Shown piece after piece: positions 14,634-61,919 of a stretch of 64,000 nt of DNA (position 1 is its first letter; each line of letters begins with the position of its first letter). The translations under genes and the position numbers were made by a program. The stretch is from Desulfosporosinus acididurans (lineage in GTDB: Bacteria; Bacillota; Desulfitobacteriia; Desulfitobacteriales; Desulfitobacteriaceae). The stretch covers positions 124,001-188,000 of the forward strand of contig NZ_LDZY01000009.1 of NCBI RefSeq assembly GCF_001029285.1, written 5' to 3'. The notes beneath the pieces are model-generated. The model searched no databases and was not told the origin of the DNA. It saw nothing but the letters and a program-made list of their open reading frames with translations.

Positions 14634-14723
14634 TTAAAATCATGGCTTAGTTATGAGCAAATCAGTCATTCTCGTCAAAAAAAACTTCCCGAGCTTTAAG
14701 CCAGGGAAGACTTTTTGAACGAT

Positions 14724-15029
14724 TTACCAATTGTTGCGTCGCTGTGATTGGAAACAGTCACGGCAATAGACTGGTTTGTCACCGGATGGTTGAAAAGGAA
14801 CCATGGTCTCTTTTCCACATTCAGCGCAAACTGCTGGGAACATTTCTCGTTGCTGGCGACCATATCCGCCGCCATTGCCACGAGTTTGTTGCTTTCGGGC
14901 TGCACGGCAGGATGGGCAACGACCAGGTTCATTGGTAAATCCTTTTTCAGCATAGAATTCTTGTTCACTGGCTGAAAAAACGAATTCTTGACCACAATCT
15001 CTGCAAACAAGGGTTTTGTCGTTAAACAT
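14724..15029 (-). CDS. CxxC-x17-CxxC zinc-ribbon protein, copy 1
   Basis: The protein is 101 residues. The start ATG at 15029 follows TTAGGAGG; an upstream in-frame extension is not needed. It has two zinc ribbons: CRDCGQEFVFSASEQEFYAEKG-x-CPSC near the N-terminus and CAECGKETMVPFQPSGDKPVYCRDC near the C-terminus. They are joined by a Gly/Arg/Gln-rich linker. Proteins of this kind are common in clostridia and uncharacterised; nucleic acid binding is plausible. A second copy lies at 23836-24141 within a duplicated block of about 0.5 kb that includes the leader. Confidence 0.85.
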   Translation of the reverse strand: MFNDKTLVCRDCGQEFVFSASEQEFYAEKGFTNEPGRCPSCRAARKQQTRGNGGGYGRQQREMFPAVCAECGKETMVPFQPSGDKPVYCRDCFQSQRRNNW

Positions 15030-15210
15030 AAAAAAACCTCCTAAAAATTTTCTGCCCGCAGGTGTGGGATGTAATCTTCCCATAGCTTTAGGCAATTAAG
15101 AAGGTTTTGGATGTCCACATTTTCTAACGAGCATCTCATAGTATAGCAGAATAGAGGCTAACCCACAATAAATTATTCAGAAATATTTAAAACATCTCCG
15201 ATACCAAATT

Positions 15211-15345
15211 CACTCACGCCCCTCGCCACCCTCAACCCCAAATACCTATAAGCCCCAGCTGCTGGTCATTTACCGAACTTCTTCAATCCCGCAGGATGGG
15301 ATGGGCTTACCTATCAAAAGCGCTCATCGAACAGGGAAGGTGGAG
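15211..15345. repeat. Interspersed repeat family, copy
   Basis: It holds the C-rich module CGCCACCCTCAACCCCAAAT-ACCTATAAG, then AATCCCGCAGGATGGG, TTACCTATC, AAAGCGCTCATCGAACAGGG and AAGGTGGAGGATGGG. It directly follows the zinc-ribbon block, as does the copy at 24325 after the second zinc-ribbon block. Confidence 0.75.
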
Positions 15346-19941: not shown

Positions 19942-20289
19942 ATGAGTCAGCCTAATAAGTTGGTAGTGGTTTGGACTAACGGAGATAGGGAAGTTGCAAT
20001 ACGTATGGCATTTATGTATACACTAAATTCTAAACTTAAGGAATGGTGGGATGAAGTCTCCCTGATAGTTTGGGGTCCATCTGCAAAACTTCTCACAGAA
20101 GATACATCGTTGCAGGAATACATTGGGAAAATTAAAGATGCGGGTGTGGACGTATTAGCCTGTAAGGCATGCGCAGATAGTTATGGGGTTTCTGAAATGT
20201 TAGAAAAGATCGGGATAGACGTAAAATATACGGGTCAAGTGCTTACGGATTTTCTAAAAGACGAAAATGCAAGAGTTATAACTGTCTAA
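19942..20289 (+). CDS. DsrE family protein
   Basis: The protein is 115 residues from ATG 19942, about nine bases after AGGAGG. The DsrE/DsrF-like fold is indicated by KLVVVWTNGDREVAIRMAFMY, VSLIVWGPSAKLLTED and a C-terminal VLACKACADSYGV with two cysteines (C-x2-C). Members of this superfamily handle sulfur or persulfide in sulfur-relay reactions, but many stand-alone copies are uncharacterised. There is no neighbouring dsr operon. Two further DsrE-like genes lie at 61920-62645. Confidence 0.8.
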   Translation: MSQPNKLVVVWTNGDREVAIRMAFMYTLNSKLKEWWDEVSLIVWGPSAKLLTEDTSLQEYIGKIKDAGVDVLACKACADSYGVSEMLEKIGIDVKYTGQVLTDFLKDENARVITV

Positions 20290-20339
20290 GCTAGATTTTA
20301 CTATTGTTTTCATCAATTATTGTCGTCTCACGTCACTCC

Positions 20340-20400
20340 CAGCACCCCCGCTAACCTCAAGAAGAAATAGCCGCTCTAATAATGGGTAGCCAGTTGTCTG
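20340..20400. repeat. Interspersed repeat module
   Basis: CACCCCCGCTAACCTCAAG, AAGAAATAGCCGCTCTAATA and ATGGGTAGC are modules shared with 19143-19255, 26317 and 36855. Confidence 0.55.
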
Positions 20401-20453
20401 GCGATTGGGACGGGAGTCTATCAATTGAAGGAAAGTTTGAAGGAGGGAAAAAG

Positions 20454-20789
20454 ATGAGTACTTATAATTTCAAGGTAAGCATTTCTCCGATCGAAGCATT
20501 AGATTTAGTCAAGCAAAATGAAAATGCCAATCTTGTACACGAGGAAACTCATGATTTGGGCAATGGAAGTTACATTGGGACCTTAATATTCGAGAAATAT
20601 TATATGCGGGTGAAGAATAGGGTGGCACTCGTGGTAATAATCGATAATATTTATGGACAAACAGATGTAAGATCGATATCTACTGGTAGTTCAGAAGGCA
20701 TGATTTTAAATTTTGATTGGGGTGCGGCTAATTCCTTTGCCAATAGTGTACAAGACATTCTTAGTGATTATATTATTTCACCAGAATAA
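20454..20789 (+). CDS. DUF6054 family protein
   Basis: The protein is 111 residues from ATG 20454, which follows GAAGGAGGG; a longer in-frame start lies inside repeat sequence. It is recognised by YNFKVSISPIEALDLVKQ, LVHEETHDLGNGSYIGTLIF, EKYYMRVKNRVALVVIIDN and ATGSSEGMI-like ISTGSSEGMILNFDWGAANSF. The family is small, soluble and of unknown function in Firmicutes. It is a single-gene unit in an accessory region. Confidence 0.75.
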   Translation: MSTYNFKVSISPIEALDLVKQNENANLVHEETHDLGNGSYIGTLIFEKYYMRVKNRVALVVIIDNIYGQTDVRSISTGSSEGMILNFDWGAANSFANSVQDILSDYIISPE

Positions 20790-20935
20790 TTAAGTACCAA
20801 TGGGGCCATTTCCGCTACCCTCAACCACAAAAACCTATAAACATGATTTAGGGAATAATTTTACATAATATTAAGAGTGTTCTTCGTAAGGTTCTGGAAT
20901 CGTTTACGTGAAATAAAATTGTTATCTCAAAAAAG

Positions 20936-21029
20936 AAGAGGGGCTTGCCCCCTCACCTTTAGTATATCTAATACCATCCGTAGGAATATGGGTTATAAGC
21001 ATAGGGATAGGCAATCCAAAACCAAGCAT
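20936..21029 (-). pseudogene. Deleted copy of the 37823-37948 Tyr-rich peptide gene
   Basis: The sequence from CTTGCCCCCTCACCTTTAG to CCAAAACCAAGCATGTGAT reproduces both ends of the 37.8 kb gene and its terminator almost exactly. About 65 bp of its middle are missing. The reading frame is shifted after M-L-G-F-G, so the YPYAYTPYSYGWY tail is lost. Confidence 0.8.
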
Positions 21030-21103
21030 GTGATTACTTTTATCCGTGCTAAGCCCCCTGAAACGTTAGTATCTAGGATTGTAAATATTATTAACTTCAA
21101 CAC

Positions 21104-21705
21104 TTGACAAGGAGCTGAATTCAAGTATAATAATCTCATAATCAGCTATTAATCAAAGATTCAGTGCTAAAAACTGTTGGTAGCGTGCTAGGGAAGTTTC
21201 GATTCATCGAAGGTTTCAGCAGTGCAATCAGTTAGGACGATGCTGAAATTGGAGTAATCGAATCCACCTAGAAGGGTGGTTATTTTGTTTAGAAAGAAAA
21301 TTTTCCCGCAAAGTTCTTCTTGGTTAGGTCTGTATGAGGTCAAGTCAGTTAGTCAAATTCGTATGAGCCAGGTTAGTTTTTAAAACACAAAGAAATAGTG
21401 GAGGATTTGTCTAGATTAGTTTTAACTTAAACTTAGTTATTGAATATTTACGTTTAGTTTAGGTCAAAGTATTTACTCCCTTACTTTTTTAGTTTTTCAA
21501 GATTCTTACTTGGTAATTTTGTTTACTTCTGTGTAAGGTGCTCAAACTATTTTAATTTTACTCTGGTTATGGATTAGATTAGTAAAGCTTTGTTGAAGAT
21601 TAATCTCGAGCCGTGTATCCATTAATTCTAGAGGAACTTTGCGGGATTCAATTTTATATTTCAAGGCCACTCATCATGAGTCCATCATGAGTGGCCTTGT
21701 TTTTT
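21104..21705 (+). ncRNA. Candidate large structured noncoding RNA (~570 nt)
   Basis: A consensus sigma-A promoter (TTGACA at 21104, 16-bp spacer, TATAAT at 21126) predicts a transcript from about 21138. No credible reading frame exists to 21705. Within it, TTCGA-TTCA-TCGAA (21198-21211), TTTCAGCA/TGCTGAAA (21214-21248) and CCACC-TAGAAG-GGTGG (21264-21279) form local hairpins. TCCCGCAAAGTTC (21304) pairs perfectly with GAACTTTGCGGGA (21634), closing a ~310-nt domain. A 13-bp terminator stem with T6 (21662-21705) ends the unit. Promoter, nested stems and terminator without a frame are what a large structural RNA looks like. An alternative is a short leader or attenuator (ending near 21290) followed by a MITE with 13-bp inverted ends. 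No known RNA family was recognised by eye. Confidence 0.5.
21662..21705 (+). terminator. Strong intrinsic terminator
   Basis: CAAGGCCACTCAT pairs perfectly with ATGAGTGGCCTTG and is followed by TTTTTT. It ends the candidate RNA unit. Confidence 0.9.
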
Positions 21706-21835
21706 GTTGTATAGGAAAGTATATATTTTGGACCAGTGAATAAGTATGAGTGTGCATCAGCACACTTTTTTTCAACAGTTACGATATATTTTTTTCTGTG
21801 CGACATAAAATAATAAAATACTTAAATGTTGAGAC

Positions 21836-22190
21836 TTAAGTGAAGGCTATAGTGAATGATCGCTCAACTGACCAAACTGGACAAATCCTAGCAAATCTTA
21901 GCGACAAATACCCTAATAGTGCAGTCTGAGGTTTATAAAGAACAAATGGATCATCTGCAATCTCGCTTAAATCAATCTGCGTAACGTTTGCCAGCCTGTG
22001 ATCTTTATCAACTATTACAAATAACTCCAGCGTCATTATATGTAACGAACTAAAGTCTTTGAAAGGTTGCTGTAGAGTGCAGAAGGACACGTCAACTTTA
22101 GCGGATTCAAGCTGTTTCAAACTCACGCTGGGCAAATAAAGGTTATCTGGTTTGTGCAGAATTAGATTTGGATTTATACAATCATAATAT
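21836..22190 (-). pseudogene. LysR-type regulator, effector-domain fragment
   Basis: The minus-strand frame reads NPNLILHKPDN, SVSLKQLESAKVDVSFCTLQ, LELFVIVDKDHRLANVTQID and LSEIADDPFVLYKP, a middle section of the LysR substrate-binding domain. The helix-turn-helix half is gone, a stop lies just upstream, and the C-terminus is replaced by unrelated residues. Confidence 0.8.
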
Positions 22191-22215
22191 TAGGGCTGGA
22201 ACCTGAATTCTGCCC

Positions 22216-22713
22216 TTAGACATAATGAGATTTGGTCTTTAGCTTTTTGTATTCAATATAGGTTAAGGCAATAATTATAATGTCGAGAAATGTTAATAAC
22301 AATAGCACAGTTGAATGATAGATAGTATACCGATAAATCTGATAAACAACGAAAATTCCTAATGATATTATTGTAAGAGGATAAGCCCAAACTTTTCTTT
22401 TCCATAATACTATTACAAGGATTAATTTTAGCGCACCATGAGAAATCAAGTAAATAACTCCGAAATATTGTGTATTGACGGTAAACTTTGAACTCATTTT
22501 TATTATGGTATTAGCGATTATATCGGTAGGGTCTTGGGATAACTCATGTTCTGTCAGCATAACAGTCATTTTATTTAATCTGGCCGGGTTTAAAAAAAGT
22601 AATAATATTCCCCCTATCATCTCCAAAAAACCATCGATAGCTTTAAGTGATAGCCCAATTTTGAAACTTTTATGGAATATGTTACTGATATCTATATTCC
22701 GAAACTTTCCCAT
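22216..22713 (-). CDS. DUF2127 family membrane protein
   Basis: The protein is 165 residues. The ATG at 22713 follows AGGGG with six-base spacing, preferred over a TTG two codons earlier. Four membrane helices are visible, with the family pattern FKIGLSLKAIDGFLEMIGGI, YFGVIYLISHGALKLILVI-VLWKRKVWAYP and a C-terminal YRY-x-LLLLTFLDIIIIALTYIEY. The function is unknown; it is an integral membrane protein conserved in many bacteria. Confidence 0.85.
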   Translation of the reverse strand: MGKFRNIDISNIFHKSFKIGLSLKAIDGFLEMIGGILLLFLNPARLNKMTVMLTEHELSQDPTDIIANTIIKMSSKFTVNTQYFGVIYLISHGALKLILVIVLWKRKVWAYPLTIISLGIFVVYQIYRYTIYHSTVLLLLTFLDIIIIALTYIEYKKLKTKSHYV

Positions 22714-22834
22714 ATTCAACCCCTACAGTCATTTCGTTTCACTCTATTATTTGCTTGTTTGTATTATTAATTCACATGTAAGGACTGAAACCTAACTTCA
22801 GTCCTTTTTTATGTTCAAAAGGAGGTGAGGCAAA

Positions 22835-22966
22835 ACGGGAAATACTGTCGGAAATATTATCGCTCGTATCGGGACGGATGCATCCCCAATGACGGAGGAG
22901 CTAAAAAAGGTTCATAATATGATCCTCACCTTCAAAGACGAATCCCTGGACGCGCTCAAATTGTAA
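22835..22966 (+). pseudogene. Short fragment with phage tape-measure-like start
   Basis: A strong AAGGAGGTGAGG precedes A-C-G-GGA, where an ATG or TTG would be expected. The frame then reads GNTVGNIIARIGTDASPMTE, ELKKVHNMIL and ends at TAA after 43 codons. The opening resembles N-termini of phage tail tape-measure proteins (T-V-G-x-I-x-x-R-I-G-x-D). It is probably a prophage remnant with a lost start codon; the assignment is weak. Confidence 0.35.
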
Positions 22967-23080
22967 TACATTACTTGACAAATCATCACAAACTTTATGC
23001 AAAGCTAGTGATCAACAGTAGGTAAAAGTCCCAAACTGGTGATTGACTTTGAAATGTACAACTCCGGAGAAGATTCTGCT

Positions 23081-23521
23081 TCAAAGGATGATGGTGAGCT
23101 GAACGTTGCGAAAAGGGCTAGACTCGGCAAGCAGTCCAAAGATAACCTGAAAAATACCAAAAGGAATCATGTAGGCACTGATTAATAAGCCGGCCTTTGC
23201 TATATCAATGTTCAAATTTTGAGAAATTGCGGGTAATAAGGGAGAAACGACCCAATTATCTGCCATAACGATAAATCCGGCCAAACCGAGCAACGCGATA
23301 AGATTCTTCTTCACGTTCTTCGGCATCCCGTTATATTCGAATGCTGCTGGAGTCATTCCGCTGGTCAGTGAGTTAACCAGAGCAGGTGTCGCTATGGGCA
23401 CCGCACTTGCTTTCATGATGGCGGTCACCGCCTTGAGCATTCCAGAAATGATCTTACTGCGTAAGGTTTTAAAGCCAAAACTGCTGGATTTTTCTATTAT
23501 AAATGGAACAGCAATTTGTCC
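23081..23521 (-). pseudogene. MFS transporter, N-terminal fragment
   Basis: From about 23326 downward the minus strand reads MPKNVKKNLIALLGLAGFIV, then MADNWVVSPLLPAISQNLNI and AGLLISAYMIPFGIFQVIFG, the first two helices of an MFS drug-type transporter. It then ends in unrelated residues and a stop. The part upstream of the Met (23327-23521) stays open in frame (residues like KSSSFGFKTLRSKIISGML) but belongs to nothing recognisable. The right edge is the exact start of a repeat copy at 23522. Confidence 0.75.
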
Positions 23522-23750
23522 TGGTACAGTGGTATAATTAGGAATAAGTTGGAGGAGGGCGGTTAGAACTGGCCTGTCCGCCAATTCCGTTAATTGGCGG
23601 ACAACTTAAAGCTGCAATATTACGTTCAGTAAAGCGGGAATTGTTATGTAGCCGGAGAGTGCTGGATAAATAGAACCCGAACAGCCAATCCTGCGGTATG
23701 TCCTTACCTATCCAAAGGCGCTTACCGAGCCGGAAAGCTGGAGGGGGGGC
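23522..23750. repeat. Interspersed repeat family, longest copy
   Basis: It starts GGTACAGTGGTATAATTAGG and carries the perfect hairpin GTCCGCCAATT-N5-AATTGGCGGAC (23576-23602). It continues with GCTGCAATATTACGTTCAGT, GCCGGAGAGTGCTGGATAAA, CAGCCAATCCTGCGGTATGT, CCTTACCTATCCAAAGGCGC and ends in GAGCCGGAAAGCTGGAGGGG. It contains all modules seen singly elsewhere and defines the composite element. Confidence 0.85.
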
Positions 23751-23835
23751 AGAGTTTGACTTGAATATAAACTAACGTTTGCCAGCAAATAAAAAACTTC
23801 CCGAGCTTTAAGCCAGGGAAGACTTTTTGAACGAT

Positions 23836-24141
23836 TTACCAATTATTACGTCGTTGTGATTGGAAGCAGTCACGGCAATAAACTGGTTTGTCACCGGATG
23901 GTTGGAAAGGAACCATGGTCTCTTTTCCACATTCAGCGCAAACTGCTGGGAACATTTCTCGTTGCTGGCGACCGTATCCGCCATTATTACCACGAGTTTG
24001 TTGCTTTCGGGCTGCACGACAGGATGGGCAACGACCCGGTTCATTGGTGAATCCTTTTTCAGCATAGAATTCTTGTTCATTGGCGGAAAAAACGAATTCT
24101 TGACCACAATCTCTGCAAACAAGGGTTTTGTCTTCGAACAT
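23836..24141 (-). CDS. CxxC-x17-CxxC zinc-ribbon protein, copy 2
   Basis: The protein is 101 residues with start ATG 24141 after TTAGGAGG. It differs from copy 1 (14724-15029) at only a few residues (E for N at position 3, N for S in the first ribbon's flank, N-N for G-G in the linker). All eight zinc ligands (CRDC, CPSC, CAEC, CRDC) are kept. Leader, terminator region and downstream flank are also duplicated. Confidence 0.87.
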   Translation of the reverse strand: MFEDKTLVCRDCGQEFVFSANEQEFYAEKGFTNEPGRCPSCRAARKQQTRGNNGGYGRQQREMFPAVCAECGKETMVPFQPSGDKPVYCRDCFQSQRRNNW

Positions 24142-24324
24142 AAAAAAACCTCCTAAATTTTCTGCCCGCTGGTGTGGGATTTAATCTTCCCATAGCTTTA
24201 GGCATTTAAGAAGGTCTTGGTATATCCACATATCATAACGAGCGACTTTTAGTATATCAGAATTGAGGCTGATTCACAACCAATTATTCGGAAATATTTA
24301 AAACATCTCCGATTTCTAATTCAC

Positions 24325-24437
24325 TCGCTACCACCTCCAAACCCAATAAATCCCAGAAGCCAGTCAACCTATCGGACTCCTTAAATCCAGCAGGATGGAT
24401 GTCTTTATCTATTAGATACGGGAAGAGGGAGGTGCTG
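24325..24437. repeat. Interspersed repeat family, copy
   Basis: CGCTACCACCTCCAAACCCA, AATAAATCCCAGAAGCCAGT, AATCCAGCAGGATGGATGTC and GATACGGGAAGAGGGAGGTG follow the module order of the copy at 15211. It likewise lies behind a zinc-ribbon block. Confidence 0.65.
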
Positions 24438-26702: not shown

Positions 26703-26755
26703 GTGTGATGGAACGCCGTGTGAAGGGAAACTGTCATGCACGGTGTGTGGCAGGA
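26703..26755 (+). mobile_element. Group II (class C-like) intron remnant, domain V
   Basis: GTGTG directly follows the T run of a terminator. Then comes GGAACGCCGTGTGAAGGGAA and ACTGTCATGCACGGTGTG. The second part matches group II intron domain V of the bacterial class C type: CGC triad, C-C-G-T-G stem with C-A-C-G-G, a GAAA-type loop. Class C introns insert just after terminator hairpins and begin GTG(C/T)G. The ribozyme body and reverse transcriptase are absent, so this would be an internally deleted relic. Confidence 0.5.
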
Positions 26756-26987
26756 AAAATGGCCGGAAATAATACATATAATTTAGGATACATGTGCATG
26801 ATTCCTCATATCTTAATATCATATGATATAATTAATCTAAATTAACTGCTTGGGGAATCGTTTTAGAAATTTATTTAAATGAGTTGGATCAAATCCATTA
26901 AGGAGCAAAAAGTCTATTTAAAGAAATTTAAACAAGGATAAGTTAACATTAGAAAAGCGCATTTAATGCAAGGGAGAAAAGTTCTGT

Positions 26988-60800: not shown

Positions 60801-61672
60801 AAACCATGCCTGAACCAAGATCAATACGTTTTAAGTCACGCCATACACAAAAACCATCCTTGAAAATTGCCAGACCGAAGGTCTTGATTCCTGTTTTTCC
60901 CGGTACCAACTGTGAATATGACTCCGCAAGAGCCTTCGAGAAAGCGGGAGCAGACGCAGAAACCCTAATTATCCGCAATTTAACGCCTTCCGATGTCGAA
61001 CAGTCCATTATGGAATTGACGAAAAAGATTGGTCAAGCCCAGATCGTCATGCTGGCAGGTGGTTTCAGCGCCGGAGATGAACCTGACGGCTCCGGTAAAT
61101 TTATCGCCACAATGTTCCGAAACCCTCGGATTAAAGAGGCGGTTTCGGAGCTTTTAAACAAACGTGACGGGCTTATGCTGGGAATTTGTAATGGCTTCCA
61201 AGCGTTGATCAAGCTCGGCTTAGTACCTTACGGAGAGATATTAGATTTAACCTCAGAAGCGCCGACTCTGACGTACAATAAGATTGGCCGGCATGTTTCC
61301 TGTATGGTTCAGACCAAAATTGTTTCTGTTTTATCGCCGTGGTTTAGCGGAGTTTCTCTTGGTGATATTCATACAATTCCAGTATCCCATGGAGAAGGGC
61401 GTTTCGTTGCCAGTGCAAAGGTCATTGAGATGTTGGAGGCCAAGGGACAAATTGCGACCCAGTATGTGGATTTCAAGGGTGACCCGAGCAACCACATTGA
61501 GTATAATCCCAATGGTTCATACGAGGCTATCGAAGGAATTACCAGTCCCGATGGAAGAATCTTAGGTAAGATGGCTCATTCTGAAAGAACGGGCTATGGA
61601 GTGGCACTTAATATTCCGGGAGATAAATATCAGCCGATTTTTGCCGGCGGTGTAAATTATTTTAGAGGATAA
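57866..61672 (+). CDS. purL: Phosphoribosylformylglycinamidine synthase, single-chain
   Basis: The protein is 1268 residues from ATG 57866 (TTGGAGG upstream). It catalyses FGAR + Gln + ATP to FGAM in purine synthesis. PurS-like N-terminus (~1-160), synthase core with RDTEKRNPTLTEIRVIDTYW-SDHCRHTTF, MFKNETHNHPTEIEPFGGAA, GGRTGRDGCGGATGSSKEHT and GGKDSMSGTF. The C-terminal glutaminase (~1005-1268) has VLIPVFPGTNCEYDSARAFE, MLGICNGFQALIKLG (nucleophile Cys ~1108) and the final GKMAHSERTGYG (His/Glu). The length matches the clostridial one-chain form. No other purine gene is nearby. Confidence 0.96.
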   Translation: MESQTVKRIYVEKKPGYDIEAQGLLSDLRENLGINSLSGVRIINRYDISGITDEEYQQSRSIIFAEPPLDSIYDERLDISAQDRVFAMEYLPGQYDQRADSAAQCLQILTQKERPAIASAKVIILTGSLTEEDFQAIKHYCINPVESREASLDKPNSLEFESVLPPNVEVISDFTQKSPEGLREFFHQAGLAMSFQDLMFCQSYFRDTEKRNPTLTEIRVIDTYWSDHCRHTTFNTKIEEVIIPSGDFSDPLLNSYQDYLASRDFVYAEKTDHRDICLMDLAVIGMKELKKKGLLPDLDESEEINACSIVVNLDHDGQSEEWLVMFKNETHNHPTEIEPFGGAATCLGGAIRDPLSGRTYVYQAMRVTGSGDPRGKLEDTLEGKLPQRKITQGAAAGYSSYGNQIGLATGQVAEVYDEGFMAKRMEVGAVIAAAPRKNVVREVPEPGDVVVLVGGRTGRDGCGGATGSSKEHTSESLLTCGAEVQKGNPPTERKIQRLFRKPEVSTMIKRCNDFGAGGVSVAIGELTEGLEINLDAVPKKYEGLDGTELAISESQERMAVVISAENLEPFIAFAREENLEATLVAHVSSNPRLKMSWRSETIVDLSREFLNTNGIKQTTKVRVNLPESSNNYFKTLPAALSSFNTETKDANLLVKAWLANLQDLNVCSQKGLVERFDSSIGMSTVLMPLGGKYQATPAEGMVAKLPMQSGDSKAATVMTYGYNPQLAKWSPFHGALYAVVHAVTKIVALGGDYRNVRLTLQEYFEKLGSDPEKWGKPFSALLGGFYAQKKLQIPAIGGKDSMSGTFMDLNVPPTLVAFAVNVLDVDKVVSQEFKKAGSKVVLIPSLRDNQEIPNFDQLAKNYRKVSELIQAGYVLASHTVGMGGLAAAVSKMSFGNRLGLTITEPMDFQRLFSADYGSLILEIQDSIELDQIFGDVVYEFLGTTQDDPMITVNGVSLAVEEAQKAWEQPLERIFSTRTETMPEPRSIRFKSRHTQKPSLKIARPKVLIPVFPGTNCEYDSARAFEKAGADAETLIIRNLTPSDVEQSIMELTKKIGQAQIVMLAGGFSAGDEPDGSGKFIATMFRNPRIKEAVSELLNKRDGLMLGICNGFQALIKLGLVPYGEILDLTSEAPTLTYNKIGRHVSCMVQTKIVSVLSPWFSGVSLGDIHTIPVSHGEGRFVASAKVIEMLEAKGQIATQYVDFKGDPSNHIEYNPNGSYEAIEGITSPDGRILGKMAHSERTGYGVALNIPGDKYQPIFAGGVNYFRG

Positions 61673-61919
61673 ATCTCAAGAATTCCTCAGGCAAAGCCAC
61701 CGAAATGGGTAAGGTTAAGCTAGGTCGATATACAGTTATATTTTAATAAAGCATTTCTTTTGCAGGGTTTCAGAATTGTATGTCGAAGACATATGCTTAG
61801 TTGATTTTTATGGGCATAATTTATCCGGTTTTTAAAACTCCCATGTTCAGCTTTAGCTGAACGAGTTCATGGTAATGATTTGAAAAATTCACACTGATCT
61901 TCAACACAAGAATTAGGAG
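61673..61919. other. Intergenic stretch
   Basis: No gene or clear hairpin was seen between purL and the small DsrE-associated gene. Confidence 0.4.

Follow-up and report, generated by a model that had tools for sequence, protein, structure and literature searches.

A candidate gene for a large stand-alone structured RNA, with a long-range closing helix, in Desulfosporosinus and related genera

Positions 21104–21705 of the window (the whole 64-kb stretch of Desulfosporosinus acididurans DNA that was analysed) raise the question of what kind of gene occupies some 600 nt between a promoter and a terminator. A sequence-only reading had proposed a large structured noncoding RNA, an interpretation that proves largely right, supported as it is by conservation and by paired stems. 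The segment is a candidate for a free-standing RNA gene, provided with a consensus promoter and a terminator of its own, and comparison of its homologs suggests that a large stand-alone structured RNA would be transcribed from it. The features are as follows.

21104..21131, + strand: sigma-A-type promoter TTGACA-N16-TATAAT (TTGACA 21104–21109, spacer 16 nt, TATAAT 21126–21131)
21138..21303, + strand: 5' domain P1–P4, described by covariance model R1
21159..21248, + strand: P1 (ATTCA/TGAAT), 21159–21163 with 21244–21248; 96.5% of cells paired
21197..21212, + strand: P3 hairpin (TTTCGA..TCGAAG), 21197–21202 with 21207–21212; 98.2% of cells paired
21219..21243, + strand: P2b (GCAUUG/CAAUGC), 21219–21224 with 21238–21243; 92.5% paired
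21262..21281, + strand: P4 hairpin (ATCCACC..GGTGGTT), 21262–21268 with 21275–21281; 96.2% paired
21304..21320, + strand: P5 5' strand (TCCCGCAAAGTTCTTCT), pairing with 21630–21646
21321..21390, + strand: variable loop with GUYAG-type words; in relatives, (GUYA)n-like tandem repeats lengthen it to as much as 769 nt
21391..21422, + strand: conserved middle block ATAGTGGAGGATTTGTCTAGATTAGTTT, 5' strands of P6 and P7; near-invariant in a 45-copy alignment
21423..21595, + strand: second variable region, rich in U and poor in C, containing a small hairpin (21479–21484/21533–21538)
21596..21629, + strand: conserved 3' block AAGATTAATCTCGAGCCGTGTATCCATTAATTCT, 3' strands of P7 (21597–21606) and P6 (21618–21628)
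21630..21646, + strand: P5 3' strand (AGAGGAACTTTGCGGGA), pairing with 21304–21320
21662..21705, + strand: intrinsic terminator, a long hairpin followed by T6, recognised by arm complementarity, fold and conservation

The transcription unit

The promoter matches the consensus at 12 of 12 positions, is the sole site within 20000–23000 to do so, and keeps both boxes in about 45 aligned homologous copies; the predicted transcript would start at about 21138. At the other end, the terminator arms (21662–21678 and 21683–21699) are 94% complementary, are separated by 4 nt and are followed by TTTTTT at 21700–21705, and the hairpin is kept across copies with compensatory changes, for example at 21668–21693 and 21672–21689. 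No long ORF lies between the two, the longest frame of the window RNA having 35 codons where shuffles average 41, nor are frames longer than chance among 46 copies (mean longest frame 39.5, as against 44.6 when shuffled). The consensus promoter, the strong T6 terminator and the lack of a coding frame, all claimed at the outset, have thus been borne out. The predicted RNA (21137–21705) has a minimum free energy of −149.5 kcal/mol (z = −4.2), as low as which none of 100 shuffles came. The properties generally expected of a large stand-alone noncoding RNA, namely a promoter, a terminator, no ORF and a structure kept through compensatory changes, are therefore found together here.

The closing helix, the inner blocks and the 5' domain

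The pairing of 21304–21316 with 21634–21646, thought from the outset to be extendable to 17, is the universal core of the RNA. This 17-nt helix, P5, is 94% complementary in the window, where 309 nt separate its arms, and has the consensus UCCCGCAAAGYUCCUCC with GGAGGARCUUUGCGGGA; across lineages it joins sites ~190–800 nt apart by a near-perfect 17 bp. In a comparison of all copies with both strands readable, P5 was 97.1% paired over 28 distinct ungapped variants, as against 38–62% with one strand slid, and double changes occupied 8 cells as against 2.3 in shuffles, none of 500 shuffles reaching 8. At positions 1–15 the pair was lost in 2 cells only, among 56 copies. Of particular interest is a double change from U-A to C-G that passes through G-U: the U-A state (AAAGUUCC/GGAACUUU) occurs in genera g1 and g3, the intermediate (AAAGUUCC/GGAGCUUU) in g4 and g8, and the C-G state (AAAGCUCC/GGAGCUUU) in g5, with the central pairs also in g6. 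Most single changes keep the pair, and the remaining changes are mostly A to G or C to U with a G-U pair kept; because G-U pairs are kept, pairing in RNA is favoured over a DNA-binding site. P5 is also present in the minimum free energy fold of all 11 homologs folded from outside Desulfosporosinus, the fold energies of some being only mildly below those of shuffles (z −1.1 to −4.3). A G-test of covariation against tree-simulated alignments gave no significant pair over all column pairs, and a test restricted to the proposed pairs gave a few at E 0.05–0.1 (the best at ~0.05, within the genus and tree-aware), because sequences within the genus vary so little. The cross-genus P5 series is, on comparison of the copies, the stronger structural evidence, and by the same comparison P5 is the shared core of the family. 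Compensatory changes in the stems, the lack of which would have counted against the proposal, were found, in that P5 and the 5' domain keep their pairing through changes, compensatory ones included.

Inside P5, the pairings P6 and P7 between the middle block and the 3' block are mostly kept, with a G-C/C-G exchange at 21392–21628. The parts conserved in the 45-copy alignment are the promoter boxes, the 5' domain, the P5 strands, TAGTGGAGGATTTGTCCAGATTAGTTT in the middle block, ATTAATCTnGAGCCGTGTATCCATTAATTCTGGAGGAACTTTGCGGGAT in the 3' block and the terminator, and the spacers between conserved parts are 31 to 769 nt long. Another pairing, of 21402–21420 with 21871–21889, extends past the terminator and was taken as chance. 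In 38 of 59 copies, against a mean of 11 in shuffles, the motif RGTYAGT lies at most 60 nt after P5, and GUYAG-type words follow P5 in most Desulfosporosinus copies and in homologs from g3, g4, g5 and g8; no RGTYAGT-type motif was found in the homologs from a second family of the order (L218–L220). Repeat tracts have expanded in some copies, to 20.6 units of 17 nt in L041 and to 85 words in both L056 and L074; many copies, that of the window included, hold few repeats. Loop length is unlike even among close relatives, L041, L042 and L049 having 549–769 nt. Two short copies, L048 and L038, keep the 5' domain and the end strands, lack recognisable middle and 3' blocks, and are possibly degenerate copies or a third type.

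The local hairpins noticed near the 5' end belong to a four-helix domain that lies outside P5 and occurs in some lineages only. P1, P2b, P3 and P4 together are 95.9% paired on 38 sequences, as against 29–52% in slid controls, and homologs of the domain are recovered by R1 with E-values of 1e-5 to 1e-36. The domain is carried by Desulfosporosinus, g6 and g8, and in a related form by L219 and L220; it is absent from g3, g4, g5 and L218. Paired changes include C-G to U-A in P1 (in L054), a U-A/U-G/C-G series among copies at 21223–21239 in P2b, and a C-G to U-A exchange at 21265–21278 of P4 in the type-B lineage, with re-paired variants in other genera. A weaker alternative helix, P2a (21183–21188 with 21219–21225), is mutually exclusive with P2b, an exclusivity that may represent a conformational switch. 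Both helices are kept in Desulfosporosinus and, as read by eye, in genome G068. A kissing interaction of CUAGG (near 21189–21193) with CCUAG of the P4 loop was rejected by eye, since the P4 loop varies while CUAGG stays constant.

Copies, relatives and neighbouring genes

The genome contains three copies: that of the window, one that is 90–93% identical (G000:C11:102451-103109) and a diverged type-B copy (G000:C9:108602-109109). By DNA search none of the 29 genomes sampled from the genus lacks the segment, which recurs as a unit in 28 of the 28 others, and model R1 finds one to four copies per Desulfosporosinus genome; outside the genus the same search gave only two weak matches. A scan of named contigs returned 35 loci, of which 33 are from Desulfosporosinus and one is from a Bacillota bacterium (on a contig shared with a congener, G005); the last, from Chitinophagaceae, looks like chance. 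A wider search, with covariance models R1 (5' domain) and R2 (3' block) and with DNA patterns of P5, found diverged homologs in five other genera of the family (g3, g4, g5, g6 and g8) and in three genera of the second family, so that the expectation of a unit shared by relatives holds within the genus and beyond it.

The full architecture is present in L163 (g8) and L164 (g6), while the 5' domain is missing, and promoter, P5, loop and terminator are present, in L168, whose contig stops inside the promoter, and L217 (both g3), in L216 and L223 (g4) and in L213–L215 (g5). Of the second-family homologs, L218, L219 and L220 have P5 and a terminator; L219 and L220 add a P4-like hairpin directly before P5 and are supported by R1 (E-values 7e-6 and 0.0016, respectively), and L218 was assigned by its promoter, both P5 strands and terminator rather than by model score. 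No convincing two-strand match was found outside the order in 398 genomes scanned across the phylum, the 15 of 17 P5 pairs in L225 being judged chance. The phage, plasmid and viral collections searched gave no match, so a phage or plasmid origin was rejected; four viral-contig matches to the P5 5'-strand pattern lack the partner strand. In genome G033 (L165, reverse strand, ~2050–2200) a mini-version of ~130 nt, made up only of promoter, P1/P2 and a terminator-like hairpin, is followed after ~60 nt by a flavodiiron frame resembling FprA and may be a leader built from the 5' domain.

Neighbouring genes were named by sequence recognition, with Pfam for part only. The nearest frames upstream of the window RNA are DsrE-like and DUF6054 genes; downstream, on the opposite strand, are a LysR-domain fragment and a DUF2127 gene. 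Some 16 of the Desulfosporosinus copies are preceded by a thiD-permease-thiM-thiE-SDR cluster, other copies follow glycolate/lactate oxidation genes, and others, including that of the window, have unrelated neighbours. Among the relatives, g5 and g8 have in common a divergent frame of 250 aa next to the RNA, and a LutB-like gene precedes two copies in the second family. Neighbours shared among relatives and varied elsewhere indicate a unit that is inherited vertically and is not tied to one gene, and the unit is not obviously mobile.

Several further features were seen around the copies. Tiny hydrophobic YjcZ-like frames adjoin the RNA downstream in L163 and L215 (g8 and g5), and a TPP riboswitch (L032, 6040–6153, + strand) lies ~2 kb upstream of a type-B copy, near thiD and SDR genes. 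In the window, a truncated LysR substrate-binding domain (21836–22135, − strand) and an N-terminal MFS fragment (23081–23584, − strand), both beyond the 3' end of the RNA gene, are probably decaying genes. The RNA gene sits between the two copies, 9.1 kb apart, of a duplicated segment (14679–15235 and 23791–24346; pieces 95% and 77–94% identical) that holds near-identical small zinc-ribbon-like frames. A 107-nt repeat (19722–19828/23524–23630, 93% identical) is intergenic in one copy and overlaps the MFS-fragment frame in the other. A group II intron match (RF00029, 42.9 bits) at 26711–26842 on the + strand, near which no reverse transcriptase frame was noticed in the ORF list, is possibly a remnant, and a glycine riboswitch match at 61607–61712 (+ strand) is barely over the cut-off at 32.2 bits.

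Possible function and comparison with known RNAs

We hypothesize, with a probability of roughly 70%, that the segment encodes a large structural RNA that stands alone and acts in trans, serving as a scaffold or as an RNA or RNP particle, of the OLE, GOLLD and ROOL kind and unrelated to these by sequence. The sequence supports a unit whose RNA would be driven by its own strong promoter and ended by its own terminator, in which P5 closes a domain by joining sites ~330 nt apart and the middle block pairs with the 3' block (P6, P7) inside it. The loop varies in length, often as a (GUYA)n tract, and the 5' domain P1–P4 is added in Desulfosporosinus copies. The conserved core could then fold into a stable particle, either of RNA alone (possibly a homo-oligomer) or with protein, acting as a structural scaffold from which the variable loop projects as an exposed, tolerant or multivalent arm, and several copies per genome would provide more, or slightly different, versions of it. 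We infer the scaffold role, the action in trans and transcription itself.

Five rival explanations were weighed, of which only two retain appreciable probability. A repeat-rich loop borne on the closed P5 stem might be a multivalent sponge titrating an RNA-binding protein or small RNA, much as CsrB and RsmZ titrate CsrA. The enrichment of GUYAG-type words after P5 (38 of 59 copies against 11 when shuffled, and up to 85 words in L056 and L074) and the range of 549 to 769 nt among three related copies would suit such a role; yet what is conserved is the helices and the flanking blocks rather than the repeats, which are few in many copies, that of the window among them, and the motif is missing from L218–L220, so that we consider a sponge unlikely. 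P5 might instead be a processing stem of the RNase III type that flanks pre-rRNA, freeing the 5' domain and an internal RNA in mature or circularised form. A near-perfect 17-bp helix between sites ~190–800 nt apart in all lineages would be consistent with this, as would a 5' domain that lies outside P5 and is missing in some genera. In processing stems, however, length matters more than sequence, whereas the sequence of P5 is almost invariant, and the mature product would have to tolerate tandem-repeat insertions; processing of this kind seems quite unlikely.

The position of ~16 copies after the thi operon and SDR gene, and of the G033 mini-version directly upstream of an FprA-like frame, might suggest a leader or attenuator acting in cis on the gene that follows, but downstream genes vary in identity and orientation between copies, the frames closest to the window copy on its downstream side lie on the opposite strand, and each unit has its own promoter and strong terminator. 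As no consistent co-oriented downstream gene, such as a cis leader or riboswitch would have, was found across the copies, and as neighbours differ between them, the RNA is not the leader of one gene, and we regard this disfavoured explanation as very improbable. Equally improbable is the RNA of a mobile element, a retron or a degenerate group II intron: several copies occur per genome, some of them adjacent (L034, L067), and the window has the intron match at 26711, but no intron model matches within the segment, no reverse transcriptase or transposase recurs beside the copies (clustered frames, judged from sequence), and the common neighbours (the thi-SDR locus, and the divergent frame in g5 and g8) suggest vertical inheritance, to which may be added the lack of matches in phage, plasmid and viral collections, where pattern hits in viral contigs miss the partner strand. 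A small-protein mRNA or dual-function RNA is hardly credible. Most Desulfosporosinus copies have the frame TTG TCC AGA TTA GTT (LSRLV) in their middle block, but its SD-like GGAGG is just 2 nt from the TTG and its endings after five codons are unrelated; this mini-ORF was rejected, since frames are no longer than chance and the P6/P7 pairing accounts for the block.

Within the favoured reading of a structural, trans-acting RNA, it is tempting to speculate on large RNA particles that form a class of their own and are ancestral to the order, in which P5 and the 3' block assemble a homo-oligomer or RNP that displays the tandem-repeat arm, arm length tunes partner binding, and the P2a/P2b region of the 5' domain acts as a switch in some lineages; in this specific form the proposal is unlikely to be correct. 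To our knowledge, very few families of large structured RNA exist in bacteria, and OLE, GOLLD and ROOL are elaborate particles of unsettled function. The present family matches no Rfam 15 entry and occurs in every genome sampled from the genus and in two families of an order to which sulfate reducers belong. Its modular design, with an optional 5' domain, a near-invariant P5 and an expandable repeat loop, lends itself to clean deletion and testing of single parts. For a species with three copies, Desulfosporosinus MAG SbF1, a public metatranscriptome is available (PRJNA412438; PMC6372793). Its copies L104, L099 and L110 are on contigs OMOF01000026, OMOF01000132 and OMOF01000153.

A search of Rfam 15 with cmscan, at gathering and at permissive thresholds (E up to 10), found nothing relevant in the segment; the models of OLE, GOLLD, ROOL and raiA, a comparison with which had been proposed, were among those without a match, in keeping with the early impression that no known motif was present. 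The diverged homologs matched no Rfam family either. Like 6S RNA, a free-standing, strongly expressed housekeeping-type RNA in Bacillota, the present RNA is free-standing in that phylum; unlike it, the segment has no RF00013 match, and a missing 6S RNA is ruled out by two separate 6S genes above the Rfam cut-off elsewhere in the genome.

The smtA motif or Soda Lake RNA, which is genus-restricted and found exclusively in Thioalkalivibrio (PMC11109978), is likewise a large structured RNA, the likeness drawn here being one of description. The raiA-motif RNA (ModT) is a structured trans-acting noncoding RNA of Bacillota (PMC11706538), which resembles the present RNA in phylum and in the trans action proposed here, and differs in that its covariance model matched neither the segment nor its homologs. 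GOLLD and ROOL are large ornate noncoding RNAs with a disordered loop that form RNA-only cages (PMC12286853); the present RNA is also large with a variable loop, yet it matches neither model, is chromosomal in an order of Bacillota, and was not matched by anything in the collections of phages, plasmids and viruses that were searched. OLE RNA (RF01071) is a stand-alone RNA of ~600 nt from anaerobic or extremophilic Bacillota with long-range pairing, conserved blocks and an unsettled biochemical role (PMC12286853, PMC9723947). The window RNA shares its size, stand-alone character, phylum, long-range pairing and highly conserved blocks, and differs in having no RF01071 match at E up to 10, several copies, other neighbours and a repeat-expanded loop. 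No publication on the RNA was found among 5.4 million open-access texts. Judged by Rfam and by that literature, the RNA is a new family within the large structured noncoding RNAs of bacteria.
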